Of a DNA stretch of 60,975 bases, positions 26,132 through 49,221 are shown in pieces. Source of the DNA: an uncultured Lachnospiraceae bacterium (lineage in GTDB: Bacteria; Bacillota; Clostridia; Lachnospirales; Lachnospiraceae); assembly GCA_902761225.1 (NCBI GenBank), contig CACWJQ010000027.1, positions 3,618-64,592 of the forward strand, given 5' to 3'. A program made the translations under genes and the position numbers. The notes beneath the pieces were generated by a model, which was not told the origin of the DNA, did no database searches, and saw only the letters and a list, made by a program, of their open reading frames with translations. How positions within the stretch are numbered: the first letter of the stretch is position 1; each line of letters starts with the position of its first letter.

Positions 26132-27094
26132 ATGGCAATTCATGAGATCGCTGCTTATCAGCAGAGCGTTGACAGCTATAAGGCGGCGAAGTCCGGGCCT
26201 GATCAGGCCAAAACATCAAGTGCAGTTAAAACAGCAAAAGCGTCACAGACAGCCGGAAGCTCCCAGACGGCTTCTTCGTCTGCCGCAAAACCCGAACTTA
26301 AAGCCTGGAATCCCATATCCGAGGGAAGCAGTCTCATTCCGAGAAAGACCGATTACGGTATGACCATCGGGGATGTTAAGCTTTCGGAAGGTGCCGGTGA
26401 TTACTATAGCAAGCTGAAGAGCAAGTTCGGCGGCATGGAATTCATCGTCGTCAGCAAGGATATGAAGGAGCAGGTCAAGGCCAATGCTGCGATGTACGGT
26501 AATGCAAAAAAGCAGGTTGTCCTGATCGACGAGGAAAAGCTTGAGAGAATGGCAACCGATGAGAACTACCGTAACAAGTACGAGGGTATCATCGCAATGT
26601 CCCAGGCTAAGCTTACCCAGGCTAAGAATTCCCTTGCATCAACAGGTGCCAATGTGAAGAATTTCGGCATGTCGGTTGACGAGAAGGGAAATGAGAGCTT
26701 CTTTGCCACCGTGGAAAAGGCCGGCCAGGCACAGAAGGAGCGCATAGAGAAGAAGGCAGCCGAGAAGAAGGAAGCCAAAAAGGCCGAGAAGAAGGCTGAG
26801 CAGAAAAAGGCTGAGAAGGAACGCCTTGAGAAGAAGGCGGAAGCAAGGAAGGCCGAGAGGAAGGAAGCTGAAGAAAAGCTTCTTGAGGCAGGGGCTGAGA
26901 ATGTGCCTGTTGAAGGCGTTGAGGCAGGTGAAGAGGCTGCAGTGGCAGACGACAGGGAATATGTCACCATATCCTCCAACTCTCTCAACTCACTTATCAA
27001 TAAGGTCCAGAACTACTCATTCGGAAATGCCGCAGACCGTGTTCTGACCAGCGCAGAGAAGATGGTAGGCGGACATATCGATTTTAAGGGATGA
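26132..27094 (+). CDS. DUF6033-like protein with charged coiled coil
   Basis: 320 residues; AAGGAGG precedes the ATG. Residues 15-50 are Ala/Ser/Gln-rich and probably disordered. Residues ~70-200 form a compact domain (Y-G-M-T-I-G-D-V, F-I-V-V-S-K-D-M, V-V-L-I-D-E-E-K) that looks like DUF6033. Residues ~205-255 are a continuous Lys/Glu/Ala coiled coil. No signal peptide or TM segment. The sigma-D-type promoter suggests a link to flagella or motility; the molecular role is unknown. Confidence 0.75.
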   Translation: MAIHEIAAYQQSVDSYKAAKSGPDQAKTSSAVKTAKASQTAGSSQTASSSAAKPELKAWNPISEGSSLIPRKTDYGMTIGDVKLSEGAGDYYSKLKSKFGGMEFIVVSKDMKEQVKANAAMYGNAKKQVVLIDEEKLERMATDENYRNKYEGIIAMSQAKLTQAKNSLASTGANVKNFGMSVDEKGNESFFATVEKAGQAQKERIEKKAAEKKEAKKAEKKAEQKKAEKERLEKKAEARKAERKEAEEKLLEAGAENVPVEGVEAGEEAAVADDREYVTISSNSLNSLINKVQNYSFGNAADRVLTSAEKMVGGHIDFKG

Positions 27095-27130
27095 TTCGGA
27101 AGTTGCAGGCTTTAAGCCGGAGGCAGGATC

Positions 27131-28285
27131 ATGAATGTGTCTTTTAACGGGACAAATCCATATATGCCGTATTCCGCAGGCAGGACCCCGGGAGCGGGTT
27201 CCGGTTCCCATTCCGGACTGTCATTCCAGTACGTCTCAGGTAAAAACGCAGGAGCTTCCCTGACCGGGTATTACAAGGGAGAAGAGGTCTTAGAAGATAA
27301 AGGAAAAAGTAAGGCTGCCCAGGTAAGAGAGCTCCTTCGTGAGATACAACAGGAATCTGCAAGGAATGCATATCAGGCCGTATCCGAGGACAGGAAGAAC
27401 GGATTCCTTGATCTGACAGGTGCCAAAGAATCCGAAGAAGATGAAATGCTTCCCGAAAATGAGAACTATAACTACAAGGAGGTTGCGAACAGGATACAGC
27501 GTGCCAAGACTTCCGTCAGTGCCGGACAGGCAGTGCTTGCAGCAAAGAGAAAGGTTCTCGAGATAAGGCGGAAGATGTCATCAGGTGACTGTGATCCCGA
27601 GGAGATGCAGTTTCAGCTTACCCATGCAAAGCGCATGGAGATGGTCGCCCAGAGGAAAAAGCATCATCTCGAGCTTGAAGAGATGGTGGCGAGAACTCAG
27701 AAATCCGATGAAAGAGCCGAAAAGCTTGAAGAGACACAGCAGGATATAAAGAGTGCATATACACAGATAGCCGAAGAGAAGATAAATAAAGCCGAAGATG
27801 AGATATTCGAGGAACGCAAAGAGACCATGGAGGACATGGTAAAGGAGGCTGAGGAAAACCGCGAGGAGCTTTCAGAAGAAGAGATCGCGGAGATGAACGA
27901 GCTTGTAAGCCGTTTGGGAGAGAAAGAACTCGAGAAGCTCGAAGAGACCATGGAAGCCTTTGAGGAAATGGAAGTCGTGGATCCTCACATGACCAAAGAG
28001 GAATTCGAGGAACTGAAGAAAAAACACAGAAATTCCGAGAATAAGGCCATTGTAAAGGCTGAGATGGATTATCTTAAGGATACCATTAAGCACCAGCAGA
28101 TGAAGACTTCGGGGATATCGGGAGCATCGGCATCTTCCACAGCGGGAGTTTCGACAGCATCCCTGACCGGAGTAAATGCAGGAGGCTTTACCGGCGGAAT
28201 ATCCACCGGCTTTGATGTATCGGTCGGCGGAGACTTTGCGGGCGGTGCAGGAGGAAGCGCACCTGCGATCAACATCCAGATCTGA
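27131..28285 (+). CDS. Coiled-coil protein of unknown function
   Basis: 384 residues. It starts 36 bp after the DUF6033-like gene, behind GGAGG. The N-terminal ~45 residues are Gly/Ser-rich; residues ~115-185 hold a helical A-N-R-I-Q-R-A-K-T-S-V-S-A-G-Q-A-V-L stretch; residues 190-325 are a long Glu/Lys/Met coiled coil; and the tail is Gly/Ala/Ser-rich. No TM or signal. Probably co-transcribed with its neighbour from the sigma-D-type promoter, so a motility-linked structural or adaptor role is possible. Confidence 0.75.
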   Translation: MNVSFNGTNPYMPYSAGRTPGAGSGSHSGLSFQYVSGKNAGASLTGYYKGEEVLEDKGKSKAAQVRELLREIQQESARNAYQAVSEDRKNGFLDLTGAKESEEDEMLPENENYNYKEVANRIQRAKTSVSAGQAVLAAKRKVLEIRRKMSSGDCDPEEMQFQLTHAKRMEMVAQRKKHHLELEEMVARTQKSDERAEKLEETQQDIKSAYTQIAEEKINKAEDEIFEERKETMEDMVKEAEENREELSEEEIAEMNELVSRLGEKELEKLEETMEAFEEMEVVDPHMTKEEFEELKKKHRNSENKAIVKAEMDYLKDTIKHQQMKTSGISGASASSTAGVSTASLTGVNAGGFTGGISTGFDVSVGGDFAGGAGGSAPAINIQI

Positions 28286-28493: not shown

Positions 28494-30992
28494 TCACAGC
28501 GGAGCTTTTTCCTGTGCGGCAACCTTCTTGACCAGGCTTATCTCCATTATCTTGTCCAGGAGATCTCCGAGGCTTCTTCCCGATGCCTTGGCTGAGATCA
28601 CAAGCTGAGAATCGGGATAGAGCTGAGGAAGTGAATCGCACTCGAGGCATACGAAGCTCTCCAGATCCTGGGATACCATGAAGTCTATCTTGCAATAAGC
28701 ATTTGTTCCCAGTACCGAAGTGACATCCTCTGCAGCCTTCTGAAGGGAACGGGCAAGTTCTTCGGGGATATCAGCGGGACATTTGTTGACTGTCTCCCCC
28801 TTATGTGACAGGGCTTTTTCCTTGTCGCCTGTCTGGAAGGGAAGCTTTTCAAGGACGGGAAGGGCCTTGCCTTCAACCGTACATACGGCGAATTCACGTC
28901 CGGAGAAATAATCCTCCACCATTATCTCGCTGTCCCAGTGGAATGCATTTGCGACAGCTTTCTGATAAGCGTTGATGTCCGAAGCAACCGATACTCCGAG
29001 GCCTATGCCGCCGTTATTGGGCTTGACGATAATGGGATATTCGAGTCCCATCTCTTCGGGATTGGGAATATTATCGCCCTTCTTGATGGTATATCCGTCG
29101 GGCACGGGAACTCCCACGGTTTTCATGAGTTCCTTGGCCGCCGACTTATTTGAAGAGATGGCCGATGACCAGTAGTCACAGCCCGTATAATCCAGTCCGA
29201 GCAGGTCGAAGGCCGCCTGGACCTTGCCGTTTTCACCGTTTGCACCATGGAGAGCGATGAAGATAAGGTCTGACTGTCTGCATATCTGGAGCACATTGGG
29301 GCCGAAATAGCTGGCGGACTGGTCGGTCCTGCGCTTTCTGGTTGCCCACAGATCCGGTATCTCATCGGGAATATCCTTGGGAGCAAGGGAATATTTTTCG
29401 GGATTACCGAATACATCGGGAAGGAGCTCTTCCTCTTTTCCGTATCCCATGAATGCATCGAGGAGTATCACATTATTGCCGCGGCTTCTGAGAATATCTG
29501 CAACGGTTACGCCTGTCTTAAGGGAAAGGTTGCGTTCGTTGGAAAGGCCGCCGGCCAGCACAACGATATCAAGATTGCCGGGCAGGACGAATTCACGGAG
29601 CTCTTCCTCAGACAGGTCGATGTTCTCGACTACCATATCTGATCCGTCCATGTTGATCTTCAGGGTTTCTATCATCTGTCTTGTAAGAGTCGCGATCCTG
29701 AGGATGCTCTCGATCTGATCTGGCTTAAGATCGATATCGTATTTCTTCTTCGCAAGATTCTGAACCGTCCTGACGATGGGCTTGCTCACGTGACCTACCA
29801 GGAAATCGGTGACCCCGAGAAGTGCGTTCAGCTTCTTGGAACCTGTCATATCCTCCACCATATCTATGATCTTGAGGATATCCTCGGATCTGAAGGTGGT
29901 CATGATGCTCCTGAAGGAATCCAGCAGATCCGGGTTCTTGCGGGAATACAGTATGCAGTATGCCAGGAGATATGCGACATTGTCGGAGTATTTGGGGTTG
30001 CCGATCATATCGCAGAGAAATGTTACGAACTCATCAAAGCTGCACCCCTTTGACAGAGAGAATGCTTTTTCAACGATCATTCCCACAAGGGTGTTGGTCT
30101 CTGCGCCTTCCTTTTCACTGATGGCGGACCTGATCATGCTGTTGATGAACTGGTCCACTATCTGCATCTCAGGTCGCTGTCCGCTGGGATTGACGCGGAT
30201 ATTATACTCACCGTTTTCCCCGAAGTCGAAGAAGGTGTTGGGTGCATGGGATTCGGAGAATCCGCTCTTGCCGTAGTCGTATCCAATGTAGTATGTCTTG
30301 GATCCTATATCGTTCATAAGGATATTGACATAGTCGAAGTCTATGTTGTGGTTCTCGATAACGGACTGTCTTGCGACTATGCGGCGCTTGTAATGTTCTA
30401 TGAACTTATCGGAAAAGCCCTGTCCGTCAAAGGAAACACAGCGGTCCGGGGTGTCGTTGAGGATGGTGACATACTTTGCCTTGTTTCCTCCCTTGGAATG
30501 GCCGATGACCGTTACATAATACTGATCGAGATCGAGGAATTTATATGCCTGCTTGTACCACTCAAGGGCGTTGATCTGCTGCAGGGAATCTATCTGTCCC
30601 GCACCTTCGAAATCATCTGTCCATTCATTCTGTGCCGTTCCGCGGAATGCCACGACTGCTTCGCGCCTTCCGTTTTCATCAGTGACTGTTTCGTCGCTGA
30701 TAACGACAATGGAGATGCCGCCGCCTGCTCCGAATGCATTATCGAGATGAGTGCATACTATCTCGGCATTTGTTATGGACGGATTCTTTTTCATTGCAAG
30801 GATGATGTTACGGAAGTCACGGCCGTTCATCTGGGTAGAATATATGTATTCATCATCGAGAGCGTTTATATCTATCCTGTCCAGATACTCGCCTACCTTC
30901 ATCCCCTCAGCATCCAGGATGGAGATGATGGGCGCGATACCGGGCATATAGGTGAGATGCTCGATAAGAAGCAGTTCATCGGTTCTGTACAT
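28494..30992 (-). CDS. Fusion: Mbeg1-like (DUF2974) hydrolase and Ddl-type ATP-grasp ligase
   Basis: 832 residues in one uninterrupted frame. Residues ~1-290 are a DUF2974/Mbeg1-like alpha/beta hydrolase: A-F-R-G-T near 115 and the elbow G-H-S-K-G-G (Ser166). Residues ~300-465 are a helical linker. Residues ~474-832 are a D-Ala-D-Ala-ligase-type ATP-grasp: G-G-L-S-N-E-R-N-L-S-L (Glu486), H-G-A-N-G-E-N-G, I-V-K-P-N-N-G-G, K-I-D-F (Asp770) and E-C-D (784-786). The metal-binding Asn of Ddl is Asp786 here, so the product may not be D-Ala-D-Ala. No TM or signal. It follows the cNMP-binding gene by 15 bp. Confidence 0.85.
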   Translation of the reverse strand: MYRTDELLLIEHLTYMPGIAPIISILDAEGMKVGEYLDRIDINALDDEYIYSTQMNGRDFRNIILAMKKNPSITNAEIVCTHLDNAFGAGGGISIVVISDETVTDENGRREAVVAFRGTAQNEWTDDFEGAGQIDSLQQINALEWYKQAYKFLDLDQYYVTVIGHSKGGNKAKYVTILNDTPDRCVSFDGQGFSDKFIEHYKRRIVARQSVIENHNIDFDYVNILMNDIGSKTYYIGYDYGKSGFSESHAPNTFFDFGENGEYNIRVNPSGQRPEMQIVDQFINSMIRSAISEKEGAETNTLVGMIVEKAFSLSKGCSFDEFVTFLCDMIGNPKYSDNVAYLLAYCILYSRKNPDLLDSFRSIMTTFRSEDILKIIDMVEDMTGSKKLNALLGVTDFLVGHVSKPIVRTVQNLAKKKYDIDLKPDQIESILRIATLTRQMIETLKINMDGSDMVVENIDLSEEELREFVLPGNLDIVVLAGGLSNERNLSLKTGVTVADILRSRGNNVILLDAFMGYGKEEELLPDVFGNPEKYSLAPKDIPDEIPDLWATRKRRTDQSASYFGPNVLQICRQSDLIFIALHGANGENGKVQAAFDLLGLDYTGCDYWSSAISSNKSAAKELMKTVGVPVPDGYTIKKGDNIPNPEEMGLEYPIIVKPNNGGIGLGVSVASDINAYQKAVANAFHWDSEIMVEDYFSGREFAVCTVEGKALPVLEKLPFQTGDKEKALSHKGETVNKCPADIPEELARSLQKAAEDVTSVLGTNAYCKIDFMVSQDLESFVCLECDSLPQLYPDSQLVISAKASGRSLGDLLDKIMEISLVKKVAAQEKAPL

Positions 30993-31007
30993 TGAAAGCC
31001 TCCAAAA

Positions 31008-31490
31008 TTAATTAGATTCTATTTCTTCTATAAGAGCCTGGTAGACCAGGTTGAGATTCTCATTTTCCTTGCGGATATTCCTTACAAGATTGACTCCGAT
31101 GAACCTGAGGAGAGCCACTCCTGCAGCAGGGTGTGAGTCTGCAAAGGAATTAAAATCGGTACGGGATATCTTCAGTGAGATACAGTCTGTTTTGGCTCTT
31201 ACCGTGGCGGACCTTTTGTCACTGTCTATAAGAGCCATCTCTCCGAACACACATCCGATATCATCGCTGAGACTCGCACAGACGAATCTGTCTCCGAAGA
31301 TGGTAGTCTTGATGATGTCAACGGTTCCTTTGATCAGGAAGTACATATCGGATCCCGTCTCGCCCTCTGTTATGATATCCGCTCCGGCAGGAGAGGAAAC
31401 AGGCTTAAGCAGAGCTGCGAAGCTTTTCAGATCGTCCTCCGTGATCTTTTCAAAAAGAGGGAAAGCCTTAAGCTTATTAATATAGTCCAT
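31008..31490 (-). CDS. Cyclic-nucleotide-binding domain protein
   Basis: 160 residues that form one cNMP-binding barrel and little else: an N-terminal helix, G-E-T-G-S-D-M-Y-F-L-I-K-G, and the phosphate-binding cassette F-G-E-M-A-L-I-D-S-D-K-R-S-A-T with the Glu and Arg that contact cyclic nucleotides intact. A C-terminal helical stretch follows; there is no HTH, so it is not a transcription factor. Its start overlaps the stop of the channel-like gene (TGATG), which ties it to channel gating or to the ATP-grasp fusion downstream. Confidence 0.92.
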   Translation of the reverse strand: MDYINKLKAFPLFEKITEDDLKSFAALLKPVSSPAGADIITEGETGSDMYFLIKGTVDIIKTTIFGDRFVCASLSDDIGCVFGEMALIDSDKRSATVRAKTDCISLKISRTDFNSFADSHPAAGVALLRFIGVNLVRNIRKENENLNLVYQALIEEIESN

Positions 31491-31890
31491 CAGTGCTCCT
31501 CCCCTAATATGATCGCTCCCGCATTTGAGGGAATGATGTAATCGTCACCGGGATTGAGACGCGGTTCGTTGGTCTCCATGTCCCTGACTGTTTTGAGCTT
31601 CTGTATTATCTCGCCGTAATTGGTGGATTTCTGCGCCTCTGAAAGAATGCTGTGCTTGAGTTCCTTCTCGACACCCATATTCTCCAGAAGTCCCAGGAGC
31701 AGGACGTGCTTTTCCTTCTTGTACCATTCGAAGAGCTCGATGTACTTCCTGCCTATCCATTTTTCACCGACGGGTTCGATCTGTACGGATGTGCCGTCGC
31801 CGTTATCGAGGAACGAGCTCATGACCTGCTTCGAGATAATTGCGGTATCTTTCGGTGCGGACCTGTGCACATATATGACATTTTGAGTTG
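31490..31890 (-). pseudogene. 3' part of the channel-like gene in a shifted frame
   Basis: The +1 frame carries the missing C-terminal domain: I-I-S-K-Q-V-M-S-S-F-L, then a helical G-L-L-E-N-M-G region and a final P-G-D-D-Y-I-I-P turn, as in RCK C-terminal domains. The frame is open back to an ATG at 32005, but residues upstream of ~31890 are a shadow of the first part. It ends in TGATG with the cNMP-binding gene. Either a real frameshift, a sequence error or, less likely, programmed +1 shifting. Confidence 0.7.
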
Positions 31891-32591
31891 AGGTTGCGGG
31901 CAAGGAGAGCGGTGACAAAGACTCTTGAATCGATGAGTTCTTCATCCAGTCCTTCGGTGTTCTCACCGATAATGAGGACTTTGGCTGCCTTGAGGATGTT
32001 GGCATTCTTCAGGGTCTGCTCTTCCGTGAAGTCCCCCTTCAGGATAAGGAGCCCGCTCAGGGCATCATCATCTCTCAGGTTCTGGAGCTTGACATCATCC
32101 GCAGCCGTGACCAGTATTATGTCCGAAACCGAGAGGTTCCTGTTCTTGTGCAGTATCCCGCTTATGAGGGATTTGATATCGTTCTTGAACCCGCAGATTA
32201 TTATGTGGTCTTTCATGTTCTGCATCTTTTTGATACCTCTCTCGACATTGAGCTTTCTTGCTACAAGTGCTGATGATATATAACCGGTTATGGTGGAAAG
32301 TGCCACGACACCCAGTGACAGGACTATCAGTCCCAGTATCCTTCCGGCCGGTGTTTCGGTGAATTCGTAATCGTTGCCCGCAAGAGCAAGCAGGTTGTAG
32401 ACGATGACATCGAAGAAGCTCAGTCCGTTTTCACGTGCATCGGAGAAGATGTAGCATGCGTAGCATACCACGAAGACCAGTATGATGATCAGAAGCGATG
32501 TCGTTATGTGGGACCGTTTCAGGAAGTCTCCAAACCTTTCCGACAGCTTTCGTTTATCCTTTGTTATATTGTTGCCATCATTTTTGCCCAT
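31803..32591 (-). CDS. Two-TM channel-like protein with NAD-binding domain, first part of a frameshifted gene
   Basis: 262 residues to the stop at 31803. TM helices at ~32-49 and 84-108 flank a pore-like loop, but the K+ filter T-V-G-Y-G-D is replaced by A-G-N-D-Y-E-F, so potassium selectivity is doubtful. From residue ~128 comes an RCK/TrkA-N-like Rossmann domain (H-I-I-I-C-G-F, later V-L-I-I-G-E-N), as in Castor/Pollux-type channels. Homologous sequence then continues in another frame (31490-31890). The overlapping bases read plausibly in both frames, so an indel or collapsed repeat lies at about 31815-31865. Confidence 0.8.
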   Translation of the reverse strand: MGKNDGNNITKDKRKLSERFGDFLKRSHITTSLLIIILVFVVCYACYIFSDARENGLSFFDVIVYNLLALAGNDYEFTETPAGRILGLIVLSLGVVALSTITGYISSALVARKLNVERGIKKMQNMKDHIIICGFKNDIKSLISGILHKNRNLSVSDIILVTAADDVKLQNLRDDDALSGLLILKGDFTEEQTLKNANILKAAKVLIIGENTEGLDEELIDSRVFVTALLARNLNSKCHICAQVRTERYRNYLEAGHELVPR

Positions 32592-32831
32592 ACATCTGTA
32601 ATTTTACTTCATTTTGCGCGGTTTTTCCATATTTTTGAGTATGGAAACGATATGCCGGCCGGCAGTCGGAAATAATAGGGCGAAAGGGGCGGAATGAATA
32701 AAGAATGGCAGGCGCGGATGCAGAAAATAAGCACTGCTTGGACAAGCGTTGCGGAATATATTATTATGGTGAGTGCAGTTTTTGATCTCAGATCATTTCC
32801 GGGCCAGGTTCAGCCCGATTAAGGGGAAGTT

Positions 32832-34268
32832 ATGGAAGATAAAGTCGGCCGTATAATAATGCGTTTTTGCTGGGTTCCTCTGTTGCTTGGTATCATCGGA
32901 TACTATACCGTTGGGGGACTTCCTTTTTTCGAAGCACTGTATGATGCGGGAGCTCTGTATTTTGTCAATCCCGCATCTGAAATAAATAATGTATGGGTAA
33001 TGGCATCCAAGCTGTCGGCACTTATCGTTGCAGCAGGCGTGGTGCTCAGCTTTCTTACATCCGTATACAGGACGATCGACAGATGGTTCATGCATTTCTT
33101 CGGCGACTCAACTGCCGTTTATACGGACAATGAGGTTGGAGAGAAGCTCCAGGAAAAGCTTAAGCACGGTTTTTACGGACGTATGGAGTCCAAGAGAGTG
33201 GAGAAGGCCAGATACCATATCATCTTTCTCGACGATGATACCAAGAGCCTTCAGTTCTATGAGGAGCGCAGGAAGCTTTTTGGAAAGAACATAATATGCC
33301 TTCTTGTGAGAAATATGGATCCTTTCCTTTTGAATGCTGTAAACCGCAGGAATATCAGGATCATCAATATCTACGAAGTCATGGCCAGAAAGTTCTGGAG
33401 AAGGTTCCATCTGTTCGATGTAAGGAATATTAAGGACTATTCCATATCCATAATCGGATACGAAAATATCGGCAGGGCTATCTTCAGATACGGTTATCTC
33501 AACAACATCTTTGCCCTGGATCAGAAGATCACCTATCACATCTGGGGGTGCAACGAATCTGACGCGGTATTTCTGAATTCCCTGAATACCATGAACAATG
33601 ACAGGATCGTGGTCCATGAGAAAAAATGGCAGGATGATCTTGATGAGATCGCAAAGGCTGACAGGGTGATCATAACTCAGGAAGAGTATTCGATGCTCAT
33701 AACCCAGGAGGTCATGTACCGTAACAGCGCCGCATCGATCTTCTATTTTAACGAGGAAGGACGTAAGTGGGGAGGCTTTTACGCAGGGGATAATCTTCAG
33801 TATTTCGGAGATCTGGATGAATATCTTACCGAGGATGATATCAAGGAAGAGAGGCTTTACAGGCTCGGCAAGTTGTTCAACTATGATTACAATCTCAGAT
33901 ATGGCGGAAAACCCGAAGACAGCTTCAATGAGGCGGAGGTCGATGCACAGTGGGATGAACTGCCGGGATTCAAGAGAGCGTCCAGTATGGCAAGAGGGGA
34001 TCATTACTGGATAGAAAAGAGGATCCGCGAGGATGGAACATTCTCCGAAGAAGAATTCTGGGAGATAGAGCATGTCCGCTGGAGCAGATATCATTTTATC
34101 AATCATTGGACCTATGCGCCCGAGAGGGACAATGCGAACAGAAAGCACAATCTGCTTGTGCCCTTTGAGGATCTTCCTCTTTCAGAGAAGGAAAAGGACG
34201 GAATATACGGAAGCGTTACACATAAGCTTATAGATGAGCTTATAGAAGAAGAGAACAGGGAGCTGTGA
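32832..34268 (+). CDS. Two-TM, NAD-binding-like protein with C-terminal RyR domain
   Basis: 478 residues; AAGGGGAAG precedes the ATG. TM helices lie at ~10-30 and 58-80. A first Rossmann-like half follows (I-I-F-L-D-D-D) and a second around 203-240 (S-I-I-G-Y-E-N-I-G). Residues ~375-460 read as a ryanodine-receptor repeat: conserved Trp, E-I-E-H-V-R-W-S-R, then R-K-H-N-L-L-V-P-F-E-D-L-P and E-K-E-K-D. Bacterial RyR domains are thought to bind nucleotides or related ligands. It is divergent from the channel-like operon across 240 bp and stops directly against the convergent GGDEF gene. Confidence 0.82.
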   Translation: MEDKVGRIIMRFCWVPLLLGIIGYYTVGGLPFFEALYDAGALYFVNPASEINNVWVMASKLSALIVAAGVVLSFLTSVYRTIDRWFMHFFGDSTAVYTDNEVGEKLQEKLKHGFYGRMESKRVEKARYHIIFLDDDTKSLQFYEERRKLFGKNIICLLVRNMDPFLLNAVNRRNIRIINIYEVMARKFWRRFHLFDVRNIKDYSISIIGYENIGRAIFRYGYLNNIFALDQKITYHIWGCNESDAVFLNSLNTMNNDRIVVHEKKWQDDLDEIAKADRVIITQEEYSMLITQEVMYRNSAASIFYFNEEGRKWGGFYAGDNLQYFGDLDEYLTEDDIKEERLYRLGKLFNYDYNLRYGGKPEDSFNEAEVDAQWDELPGFKRASSMARGDHYWIEKRIREDGTFSEEEFWEIEHVRWSRYHFINHWTYAPERDNANRKHNLLVPFEDLPLSEKEKDGIYGSVTHKLIDELIEEENREL

Positions 34269-45987: not shown

Positions 45988-48900
45988 ATGGATAGAAAAT
46001 ACAACGCATTTATTTCATACAGACATGCTCCGGAGGATATCAAGATAGCCTCCGAGATTCAGACTCAGCTGGAGAGGTTTAAAATCCCGGCTGCGATACA
46101 GAAGAAAACAGGGGTCAGGAGATTTGAGAGAGTGTTCCGTGACAAGGAAGAGCTCCCCATAACCAGTGATCTTAACGATGATATCGATCTTGCTCTAAGG
46201 AACTCGGATCATCTTATTGTCATATGCTCTGTCAGGACAGGTGAATCCATCTGGGTCATGAAGGAGATAGAGACCTTCCTTAAGTATCACACCAGGAAGG
46301 AAATATTTACCGTGCTTGTGGACGGCGAGCCTGAGGATGTGATCCCCGATATCCTGCGCCGCGATACCGTTACAAGGAAGTTCGCGGGAGGAATAGAGGA
46401 GACAAGGGAAGAGATCATAGAGCCCCTCAGCTGTGACTACCGTATAGGGATCAAGAAGGCCCGTAAGACCGAGCTTCCCCGACTTGCGGCATCCATGCTG
46501 GGAGTTGCTTACGATGAGCTGATCCAGAGGAGAAAACAGTACATAAGAAGAAGGATAGCGGTCATTGCCTCGGCGGGTGCGGTCCTTGCATCCTGTGCCA
46601 TCGGATATCTGATCTGGAGTATGTTCCAGATCCAGAAGAACTATGATCTTGCGATGTTCAACTATCAGCTCGCTCAGGAAAACTATGACATGGCTCAGGC
46701 CAATTATCTTACTGCCGAGCAGAATTATCAGGAGTCATTGAAGAATCAGTCAAGATATCTGGCATCCGAATCCAGAGAATTGCTGGCCGCACATGACAGA
46801 CTCGGAGCCGTTCAACTGGCTCTTGCTGCGCTTCCTTCTGAAGGAAATGACAGACCTGTTACAAGCGAGGCTGAATTTGCGTTGGCGGAGGCACTCGGTG
46901 CATATACTACCCCCGGCCTTTTGGAGACAAGTCCTGTGTGGAAGTACGGTACAGGATATAACATACGTAAATTCCGTGTGGATCCGGATAACTGCAGGAT
47001 CGCCATTCATGATGATCAGCGGAATCTGATCATCTGGAGTACTGTTGATCACAGTCAGATCGCATCCTTCAAGGAGGATGGACATAATCTGAACGATTTC
47101 ATTCTTGGCGAGAACGGAAAGCTGTTCCTGTGTTATTCCGACGAGCTGAGAGTCTATGATAATGATCTTGAGACGATCCTCTGGAGCCTTCCGCTGAGCG
47201 GCAAGCAGTCCAGTTACGGTGCCGATAATATGATGAGAGCACTGTTTGATACATCCGACCTTCTGTATGCTTCATCGGATGTGGTAATGCTGATCGACCT
47301 TGAAACGGGAAAGGTTAATGAAGAGCATATTGTAGAGGATGAGCTGGTTTTGCCGGATGGCAGCAAGCCGGGTGATATTACGATCATGGAGTCAAGGATA
47401 TCATATGACGGTTCCATGGTTGCCATCGAGTGTCTCCTTGATTTCACGGACAGAGCTATATATGTATATGACAGGAATGAAGGTGTATGGACATTTATGG
47501 GGGATGGCTTTAAGTCAGTGTCGGACTTTAAATTTTCCGAAGATATGGAAAAGCTCATAGTTACCTATGAAAGAGATCATTTCTTTTCCAGTTACTCGAT
47601 CAGTGATTTTCAGGTGCTTTCCGAATCTATCAGGAGTAATACCGCATACGATGTTCATACCGGCGAGGCTGTCTGGAATGTTGATGTGCCTCATACGCTT
47701 GTCGGTTATGGAACGGATATACAATTTGTTAATTATGGTACCGGTGATGATGCTGTAAGAGTGGCAGCCATACTGTTTTCCAATAAGTGCCTGATCGTGG
47801 ATCCGGAGACCGGTGAAGTGCTGGAAATTAAGGAAATGGTATCTGAGTATATCGATTCCTATATTCCGTCAGCAGAAAACAGTCTTGTCATAATTCTCAG
47901 AAACGGACTGTATCTGAATATGGATCTCAAAGAACCCGGGTCTGCCATGACTGCCAGGGGTTATTTCGCAGACGATGTGGGCGATACTCTTGTGTACTGG
48001 ATGGAGGGTGAGGGAAACCGCTTCCTTATTGAGTATTATGGTTCCGGATACATAACGGAATATTCCACCAAGTTTAGCGACAGGGATTATATACCGGTTC
48101 CGGAAAGTGGAACAGAATCCCTGGAAAAATATATTGCCACGGATGACCATCTTTTCGTACTTGCCGGTGATATGACCATGTACTGCTATGATACCGTGAA
48201 TTGCAGGATGGAATGGAGTGTGAAGGTGCCGGGTGAGGCTGCTTACAATGTAAGATTTATATGTAATGATGAGGCGGGTAATGTTTATTTTCAGAATATA
48301 AATGAAGTTTCCCCAAGCGAGCCCAGGGGAGCTAAGATTTATAAGGTGAGCCTTGAGAGCGGTGAGATCTCATGTGTACTTGTTGTTGACACTTTTGATC
48401 TGTCGACCGATAGTCAGGCCGGAAAGATCTATTATCCGTTTTATGACTATGCTACCGCAAATGCTTATATCGGCGTTATAGATCTTGCCACCGGTGATGC
48501 CGGGAAGATCGATCTTGTCGGGGATGTGCCTAATGATCTCAGACTTTACGATATATATGTATCTCCTGACGGCAAGTATGCGATACTTCCCAAAACAGGT
48601 AGTGGAACTCCCGCCATTTATGGTGCGGATCTTGAGACCGGTGTAACCAATAAATTTGAAGGTGAGGAGGATAGCTTTGCGGCGTGGAGCCCGGATTCCT
48701 CAAAATATGTGATCTCCACCATATACGAAGCTGTTGTGTATAACATAAATGGCGGAGAGATCTTCAGAGTGGCTACATCAGAATCCGGGATACTGGATGT
48801 GTACCTTTGCGAGATGGGACTTATAGTGGTACAGGGCAATGGGATAGCATCTCTGTATGATTATGAAGGGGAACTGATAACTGTGCTCGATGTGCTTATG

Positions 48901-49221
48901 GGAGACAGTGTTTCGCAACGTTCCAATTACCTGGATGTGGATTTTGTTGTCACGGGGGATACCATGATACTGTATATCGATGGAACATCGGTAGTTGTCG
49001 ACATGAAAGACTTCAAGGCAAAGGCTCGTATGGAGGGGCTGTTATCGTATGATCCGGATTCCGGAAACTGTTATTTGGCAGTCCCCTTTCCAAGTGAGAC
49101 GATCGGCTCGTTCGGTTACTTCCATATCAAGAGTGTTGATGACCTTATAGCAGAAGGAAATGAGTTTGTGGGCAGCGAAGTTATGAGCTTTGAGATGAAG
49201 AGAAAATACGGAATAGAATGA
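45988..49221 (+). CDS. TIR domain - TM - beta-propeller protein
   Basis: 1077 residues. Residues 1-150 are a TIR domain: A-F-I-S-Y-R-H at 7-13, R-D-K-E-E-L, S-D-H-L-I-V-I-C-S, and W-V-M-K-E with Glu93 at the place of the NADase catalytic glutamate. A TM helix spans ~189-211. It is followed by five exact heptads of N-Y-x-x-A-type (Asn-Tyr at 218, 225, 232, 239, 246), a coiled coil. Residues ~300-1075 are beta-propeller-like repeats (V-Y-D-R/D-L-E-T-G, S-P-D-G-K-Y-A) of WD40/PQQ style. TIR inside, propeller outside is the likely topology. Single gene. Confidence 0.9.
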   Translation: MDRKYNAFISYRHAPEDIKIASEIQTQLERFKIPAAIQKKTGVRRFERVFRDKEELPITSDLNDDIDLALRNSDHLIVICSVRTGESIWVMKEIETFLKYHTRKEIFTVLVDGEPEDVIPDILRRDTVTRKFAGGIEETREEIIEPLSCDYRIGIKKARKTELPRLAASMLGVAYDELIQRRKQYIRRRIAVIASAGAVLASCAIGYLIWSMFQIQKNYDLAMFNYQLAQENYDMAQANYLTAEQNYQESLKNQSRYLASESRELLAAHDRLGAVQLALAALPSEGNDRPVTSEAEFALAEALGAYTTPGLLETSPVWKYGTGYNIRKFRVDPDNCRIAIHDDQRNLIIWSTVDHSQIASFKEDGHNLNDFILGENGKLFLCYSDELRVYDNDLETILWSLPLSGKQSSYGADNMMRALFDTSDLLYASSDVVMLIDLETGKVNEEHIVEDELVLPDGSKPGDITIMESRISYDGSMVAIECLLDFTDRAIYVYDRNEGVWTFMGDGFKSVSDFKFSEDMEKLIVTYERDHFFSSYSISDFQVLSESIRSNTAYDVHTGEAVWNVDVPHTLVGYGTDIQFVNYGTGDDAVRVAAILFSNKCLIVDPETGEVLEIKEMVSEYIDSYIPSAENSLVIILRNGLYLNMDLKEPGSAMTARGYFADDVGDTLVYWMEGEGNRFLIEYYGSGYITEYSTKFSDRDYIPVPESGTESLEKYIATDDHLFVLAGDMTMYCYDTVNCRMEWSVKVPGEAAYNVRFICNDEAGNVYFQNINEVSPSEPRGAKIYKVSLESGEISCVLVVDTFDLSTDSQAGKIYYPFYDYATANAYIGVIDLATGDAGKIDLVGDVPNDLRLYDIYVSPDGKYAILPKTGSGTPAIYGADLETGVTNKFEGEEDSFAAWSPDSSKYVISTIYEAVVYNINGGEIFRVATSESGILDVYLCEMGLIVVQGNGIASLYDYEGELITVLDVLMGDSVSQRSNYLDVDFVVTGDTMILYIDGTSVVVDMKDFKAKARMEGLLSYDPDSGNCYLAVPFPSETIGSFGYFHIKSVDDLIAEGNEFVGSEVMSFEMKRKYGIE

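Follow-up and report, generated by a model that had tools for sequence, protein, structure and literature searches.

Genes of the locus

The window analysed here is a 60,975-nucleotide stretch of DNA from an uncultured Lachnospiraceae bacterium of the gut (contig CACWJQ010000027.1, positions 3,618 to 64,592, forward strand; source genome of 106 contigs and 2.7 Mb in total). The subject is a group of four genes at 28494-34268: a gene for a channel-shaped membrane protein ending in a RyR (ryanodine receptor) domain, which calcium-release channels of animals contain as well, and, beside it, a channel-like gene, a gene for a cyclic nucleotide monophosphate (cNMP)-binding protein and a gene for a hydrolase/ATP-grasp fusion. 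All four were found to be present, and every domain scored above its Pfam cut-off. The RyR gene (plus strand) is divergent from the channel-like gene (minus strand), with 240 bp between the two. The channel-like gene overlaps the cNMP gene by TGATG at 31490, and the fusion gene follows the cNMP gene after 15 bp. The extent of the locus, these spacings and the domain calls had been reported in a first-pass annotation made from the sequence alone, and all of them were borne out.

The same annotation had proposed one four-gene locus, to be judged by the recurrence of at least three of the four genes together. Searches with tblastn resolved it into two neighbouring modules and not a single four-gene system. 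Of the 31 genomes of the genus, 14 have the channel, cNMP and fusion genes together with their order preserved, a count that takes in the window genome and G019, where the fusion is divided between contigs. This part of the proposal stood; the RyR part did not. The RyR gene adjoins the operon in only three of the 31 genomes (the window genome, G020 and G023), and in G024, of the same genus, a relative 56% identical to the window RyR protein is encoded on a contig other than that of the operon, overlapping a TIR gene by 4 bp. For these two reasons the RyR gene was placed outside the operon, and the four genes as one unit were rejected as the principal explanation. The theme of membrane proteins associated with nucleotide-sensing domains held for each module.

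RyR-domain membrane protein

32832-34268, plus strand: RyR-domain membrane protein of 478 aa, with a two-transmembrane-helix (2TM) pore-type part, two RCK (Rossmann) domains and a C-terminal RyR domain (Pfam, AlphaFold, Foldseek)
32874-33092, plus strand: transmembrane (TM) helix, pore-type helix and TM helix, residues 15-87, no TVGYGD filter (model, alignment)
33111-33806, plus strand: two Rossmann/RCK-like domains, about residues 94-325, boundaries read from the model (AlphaFold, Foldseek)
34038-34241, plus strand: RyR domain, about residues 403-470, with H414, W417, H439 and D456 at the spacing of the phage protein RyDEP (Pfam, alignments)

The match to Pfam RyR (PF02026) was 31.6 bits against a cut-off of 27.4, and the RyR-family profile matched RyR1 by sequence with an E-value of 2.4e-16. 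AlphaFold, using 69 sequences, gave a model with a predicted local distance difference test score (pLDDT) of 92.8 and a predicted template modelling score (pTM) of 0.86. The model contains a helix at residues 15-27, a pore-type helix at 32-44, a long helix at 54-87, two Rossmann-type domains and the RyR domain. The six best Foldseek matches in the PDB were chains of GsuK (E 5e-5 to 2e-4), followed, among dehydrogenases, by MthK, TrkA, KtrA, the CASTOR gating ring and a RyR R12 chimera (E at least 0.001). Against the viral library, phage RyR-domain proteins were in the top rows, with E-values of 0.001 or weaker. As far as fold and domain order can be predicted from the model, the product of the window RyR gene is a membrane protein similar to GsuK.

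RyR membrane proteins were divided by their pore. The comparison used 48 of 67 RyR proteins, 43 collected with the Pfam model and five added from the genus search, and 19 of other lengths were dropped. A TVGYGD-type filter was present in 21 and absent from 27, the latter class including the window protein and four proteins of other architecture. Linkage to a TIR gene was observed for 11 of the 27 filter-less proteins versus 1 of the 21 filter-containing ones (p 0.006), with G024 and G314 scored as TIR-linked by hand. At the filter-containing loci (L085, L087, L088, L089 and others) the K+ filter reads TVGYGD or SVGYGD, and one scanned protein of this class matches Pfam Ion_trans_2.

Linkage of RyR and TIR genes

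TIR genes encode enzymes that can produce nucleotide alarm signals. The family sample comprised 397 genomes, with RyR in 56 of them (62 places) and TIR_2 in 176 (341 matches). A TIR gene was located no more than 200 bp from the RyR gene at 16 of the 62 places, 14 times on the same strand; about 0.08 immediate neighbours were expected, assuming 2,700 genes per genome. TIR was carried by 39 of the 56 genomes with RyR, compared to 137 of the 341 without (Fisher p 3.5e-5). The TIR matches per genome behind these counts were transcribed by hand. The seeds of the TIR profile came from RyR contigs, with three further TIRs added, and Pfam TIR_2 independently confirmed several of the pairs. In this family RyR genes adjoin TIR genes much more often than chance would give.

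A scan of GTDB relatives covered 80 of 183, two of them without a recovered open reading frame (ORF) and several with loci ending near the gene. TIR was found within 200 bp at 26 of these 80 loci, 21 times on the same strand, although the set overlaps the 397 genomes (L182 is the contig of G024) and the two linkage counts are not independent. The 29 pairs within 250 bp fell, at 40% identity, into 11 clusters of TIR domains and 10 of RyR proteins. Same-strand gaps were often short for TIR-linked filter-less RyR genes. Those loci of the scan that are most similar to the window RyR locus belong to uncultured Lachnospiraceae metagenome-assembled genomes. In the phylum sample outside the family, a TIR match lay within about 1.5 kb at three of nine RyR places, in three of six genomes. 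In G314 the TIR gene is 2.3 kb upstream of the RyR gene on the same strand, and the gene between them has weak nSTAND matches. Scanned TIR proteins carry WD40-like, TPR, MORN or nSTAND-like parts. Of 31 aligned TIR domains, 30 have the TIR glutamate, which is catalytic; the remaining one is cut off before that position. Searches of open-licence papers gave no account of bacterial RyR genes beside TIR genes, only one of phage proteins (PMC13232231); excerpts of PMC8195603, PMC9503650 and PMC7159879 do not treat RyR domains.

RyR-only genes (82-102 aa) were observed at L161 (G345), L163 (G260), L164 (G238) and L166 (G058), on the same strand as TIR genes and 0.1-1.0 kb away from them; their products are possibly soluble binders or degraders of a signal. 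At L129 3214-7044 (G259) the gene of a 1276-aa protein and a filter-less RyR gene that has no TIR match converge; the start of this protein may resemble DUF4062, and the protein is a possible alternative partner. Near the TIR/RyR pair at L081 13713-15694 (G065) are two genes that by eye resemble DNA adenine methylases.

Ligand residues of the RyR domain

Phage RyR-domain proteins bind the TIR products 2'cADPR and 3'cADPR, two forms of cyclic ADP-ribose (cADPR), according to a 2026 preprint cited here and below from excerpts (PMC13232231). Cleavage of the signal was seen with one of the phage proteins tested, binding with six of eight homologues. In RyDEP, residues H75, W78, H100 and D117 contact the 3'cADPR ligand, H75 and D117 being the catalytic dyad (PMC13232231). 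Alignment placed H414, W417, H439 and D456 of the window RyR protein at these four positions with identical spacing. Among the 48 RyR membrane proteins, which were collected without the ligand residues as a filter, the four residues were kept in 27, 27, 26 and 26 of the 27 filter-less proteins and in 19, 20, 20 and 7 of the 21 filter-containing ones. The search pattern of the GTDB scan demanded H414 and W417, leaving H439 and D456 as the free tests; their counterparts were found in 69 of 69 and 68 of 69 proteins of scan set A3. The frequent replacement of the D117 counterpart in filter-containing proteins suggests another ligand, or no cleavage, in that class.

Proposed role of the RyR protein

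Our preferred reading, held with moderate confidence, is that the window RyR protein acts as a channel-like receptor for an ADP-ribose signal made by a TIR enzyme. From NAD+ the TIR enzyme would make a signal of the ADP-ribose type, such as 2'- or 3'-cADPR or a related compound; the RyR domain would bind it, the RCK gating ring would move, and the membrane part would conduct ions or turn leaky. In favour of this reading are the fold model, the ligand residues, the TIR linkage in and beyond the family, the gene overlap in G024, the TIR glutamate and the opening of GsuK by NAD+ and ADP (PMC3510474). In the window genome the TIR protein supplying the signal would be encoded at some distance, for example the following one:

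45988-49221, plus strand: 1077-aa TIR protein, its gene 11.7 kb away from that of the RyR protein (TIR_2 42.3 bits, ThsB_TIR 31.7 bits, both above the Pfam cut-off)

This protein is a possible but unproven source of the signal. Homologues of it were found in all 31 genomes of the genus, an unusually constant presence for a TIR gene.

Several observations weigh against the receptor reading. In Foldseek the match to GsuK has low TM-scores (0.33-0.37, normalised to the query) and root-mean-square deviations of 13-15. No K+ filter of the TVGYGD type was found in the aligned window protein, which makes ion conduction uncertain. No TIR gene is present within 200 bp at 46 of the 62 family places and 54 of the 80 scan loci. 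The window TIR gene is itself not adjacent to the RyR gene, and 25 of the 31 genomes with its homologues have no RyR match. A defence context was not clear either. With a PADLOC threshold of 1e-5, 90 complete neighbour ORFs (of 216) of TIR-linked RyR genes were compared to 90 (of 168) of K+-filter RyR genes, and the former were not clearly richer in PADLOC families: 21 versus 12 families were matched, with at most 2 and 3 members each, and those common to both sets include mad2, mad3, mad8, AriA and HEC. PADLOC named none of the four RyR proteins tried.

An alternative is that the RyR domain terminates or buffers TIR signalling, as phage RyDEP proteins do, by acting as a cADPR hydrolase or sink tethered to the membrane, the pore-type part serving as an anchor. 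The RyDEP dyad is matched by H414 and D456, the aspartate is kept in 26 of the 27 filter-less proteins, the pore has no filter, and RyR-only genes of about 93-102 aa stand near TIR genes in four genomes. However, cleavage of the signal was confined to a single tested phage protein, whereas most homologues bound it (PMC13232231), and a gating ring with a TM pore fold is much machinery for a sink; we consider this explanation improbable. About as doubtful is a GsuK-like sensor of NAD+, ADP or ADP-ribose for ion or redox balance, in which case the TIR linkage would be relevant to some relatives and not to the window gene. In its favour, the best solved fold is GsuK, which NAD+ and ADP open (PMC3510474, from excerpts), the sister class with a TVGYGD filter is seldom TIR-linked, the defence enrichment is not clear, and the window RyR gene has no adjacent TIR gene. 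Yet it is the filter-less class, that of the window gene, which is TIR-linked in 11 of 27 proteins and at 26 of 80 scan loci, often in same-strand pairs with short gaps.

That all four genes form one system, sensing a nucleotide and answering with ion flux plus lipid or peptide chemistry, was regarded as very unlikely. The genes do stand together in three related genomes, both membrane proteins are of the 2TM/RCK type, and the channel query weakly matched the RyR membrane protein of G034 (E 7e-4). Against this, 11 other genomes have the three-gene operon with no adjacent RyR gene, and the RyR gene of G024 pairs with TIR instead.

If the receptor reading is true, a channel-type effector would be added to TIR signalling, and the RyR module is likely a new variant of such signalling. 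We further entertain, with somewhat less confidence than the receptor role itself, that the module may be a bacterial forerunner of the animal cADPR-ryanodine-receptor pathway, a TIR enzyme making an isomer of cyclic ADP-ribose to which the channel-like protein responds at the membrane. The window gene would be one such receptor, separated from a TIR partner with which its G024 relative still overlaps. If cADPR acts on ryanodine receptors at all, and at what site, is a long-standing open question. The discussion of PMC13232231, as excerpted, takes it up again. Small bacterial proteins that combine a RyR domain with a gating ring, and whose genes adjoin that of the ligand-making enzyme, would then allow direct measurement of binding and gating. 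Most of the interest of the locus lies in the RyR module, more than in the operon.

The channel/cNMP/fusion operon

31490-32591, minus strand: channel-like gene (2TM, Slo-like RCK), split between two frames and lacking, near 31828, 83 bp that G020 and G023 have (Pfam, alignment)
31008-31490, minus strand: stand-alone cNMP-binding protein of 160 aa with the cassette FGEMAL...RSATVRA (Pfam cNMP_binding, 62.6 bits)
28494-30992, minus strand: fusion protein of 832 aa, Mbeg1-like alpha/beta hydrolase plus ATP-grasp derived from D-alanine-D-alanine ligase (Ddl) (Pfam, alignments)
28527-29573, minus strand: Ddl-like part of the fusion, residues 474-822, with ECDSLPQLYPDS replacing the EANTLPGMT-type motif (alignments)

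The three genes form a conserved operon at the level of the genus, more than chance neighbours. In G007 the cNMP and fusion genes were found by tblastn without the channel gene. Look-alike genes occur several kb off in seven relatives (L065, L066, L068-L071 and L073); those of L065 are by Pfam a Na+/H+ exchanger and a TrkA protein. Beyond the fusion is a DUF6033 gene (window 26132-28285), and the window, G020 and G023 have a second gene there. In G015, G011, G028 and G007, too, the fusion is followed by a homologue of DUF6033.

The channel-like gene, annotated earlier as one gene, was found in two frames (31803-32591 and 31490-32005), with 83 bp missing that both nearest relatives, G020 and G023, hold. 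Differences between the window and G023 fall on third codon positions in 123 of 157 and 56 of 72 cases on the two sides of the gap, a bias that marks the loss as recent or as an assembly artefact. A single frame of about 380-415 aa is present in 13 aligned relatives. Pfam Slo-like_RCK and TrkA_N both matched above cut-off, and the Slo-like RCK domain was found in both channel-like relatives scanned. A TVGYGD filter was not found in the alignment, the pore-type sequence being LALAGNDYEF. A PDB sequence search with an intact relative gave no match, and its AlphaFold model (three sequences, pLDDT 40.3) was not used.

The phosphate-binding cassette was kept in all ten aligned homologues of the cNMP protein. 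A class III cyclase was found in 24 of the 31 genus genomes, among them that of the window, where it is on another contig (C53). The cNMP-binding protein probably regulates the 2TM/RCK pore-type protein of the operon, and cyclic-nucleotide control of the channel is a plausible reading of these genes.

Pfam matches of the fusion to Mbeg1-like and Dala_Dala_lig_N/C were all above cut-off, the Mbeg1-like match (PF11187) with 32.5 against 21.1 bits; this family was formerly called DUF2974. Every listed NCBIfam cut-off was above the score of the fusion, a scan of viral contigs using the fusion gave no match, and a search of open-licence papers on it yielded nothing relevant. The fusion was found in 15 genomes. 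GHSKG and a downstream histidine, as in GxSxG-type hydrolases, were kept in all 13 copies holding the hydrolase part. For the Ddl-like part, 14 of the 15 copies were compared; alignments were read with the roles that we take its residues to have (ATP site, metal site, catalytic arginine). ATP-site and metal-site residues were retained. The DYxxKY, catalytic arginine, ENTxPG-type and SSVG-type motifs were changed in all 14, and ECDSLPQLYPD was identical in all 14. Because the ATP-grasp part lacks the Ddl-specific residues, D-Ala-D-Ala ligation by the fusion is unlikely, and the invariant new motif suggests a new acceptor and not decay. The fusion would thus be a hydrolase joined to a Ddl-derived ATP-grasp enzyme with a changed acceptor site. 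The earlier proposal of lipid or peptide chemistry is still a guess, the hydrolase having its serine and histidine motifs intact but the ATP-grasp part having lost residues specific to Ddl. That the fusion is the sole Ddl of the cell was rejected, as another Ddl-family match was present in all 15 fusion-carrying genomes (partial only in G017 and G020). What the operon contributes is a Ddl-derived enzyme that has lost Ddl residues and retained a new invariant motif.

Comparison with known systems

Pycsar requires a cyclase gene adjoining a cNMP-binding TIR or TM effector, an arrangement that the operon does not have, and the best PADLOC match of the cNMP protein, PycTIR, is restricted to the cNMP domain. 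Compared to D-alanine-D-alanine ligase, the fusion is homologous and alike in its ATP and metal sites, but differs in the four altered motifs described above.

The RyR module resembles Thoeris in that TIR genes, two with ThsB_TIR above the Pfam cut-off, adjoin RyR genes in many relatives. The TIR and RyR genes were adjacent at the 16 family places and 26 scan loci and 11.7 kb apart in the window. PADLOC ThsB models matched two of seven TIR proteins tried, weakly. Thoeris effectors are SIR2-SLOG or macro-domain proteins (PMC11204291, from excerpts), whereas neither domain was found by Pfam in the RyR protein, which PADLOC did not match either. The phage protein RyDEP and others of the R12/RyR-domain family (PF02026) share the RyR domain and the H/W/H/D ligand residues, but RyDEP-type proteins are small soluble anti-Thoeris proteins, and here the domain ends a bacterially encoded 2TM/RCK membrane protein.

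With K+ channels of the GsuK/MthK type the RyR protein shares the TM-pore helix-TM and RCK fold but not the TVGYGD-type filter. GsuK itself, a dual-RCK nucleotide-gated K+ channel, likewise combines a 2TM pore-type fold with two RCK domains, and the window protein differs from it by lacking the filter and adding a RyR domain. To animal ryanodine receptors the likeness is confined to the RyR domain, as seen in the sequence match to RyR1, while the bacterial pore and gating ring are of the K+-channel type.

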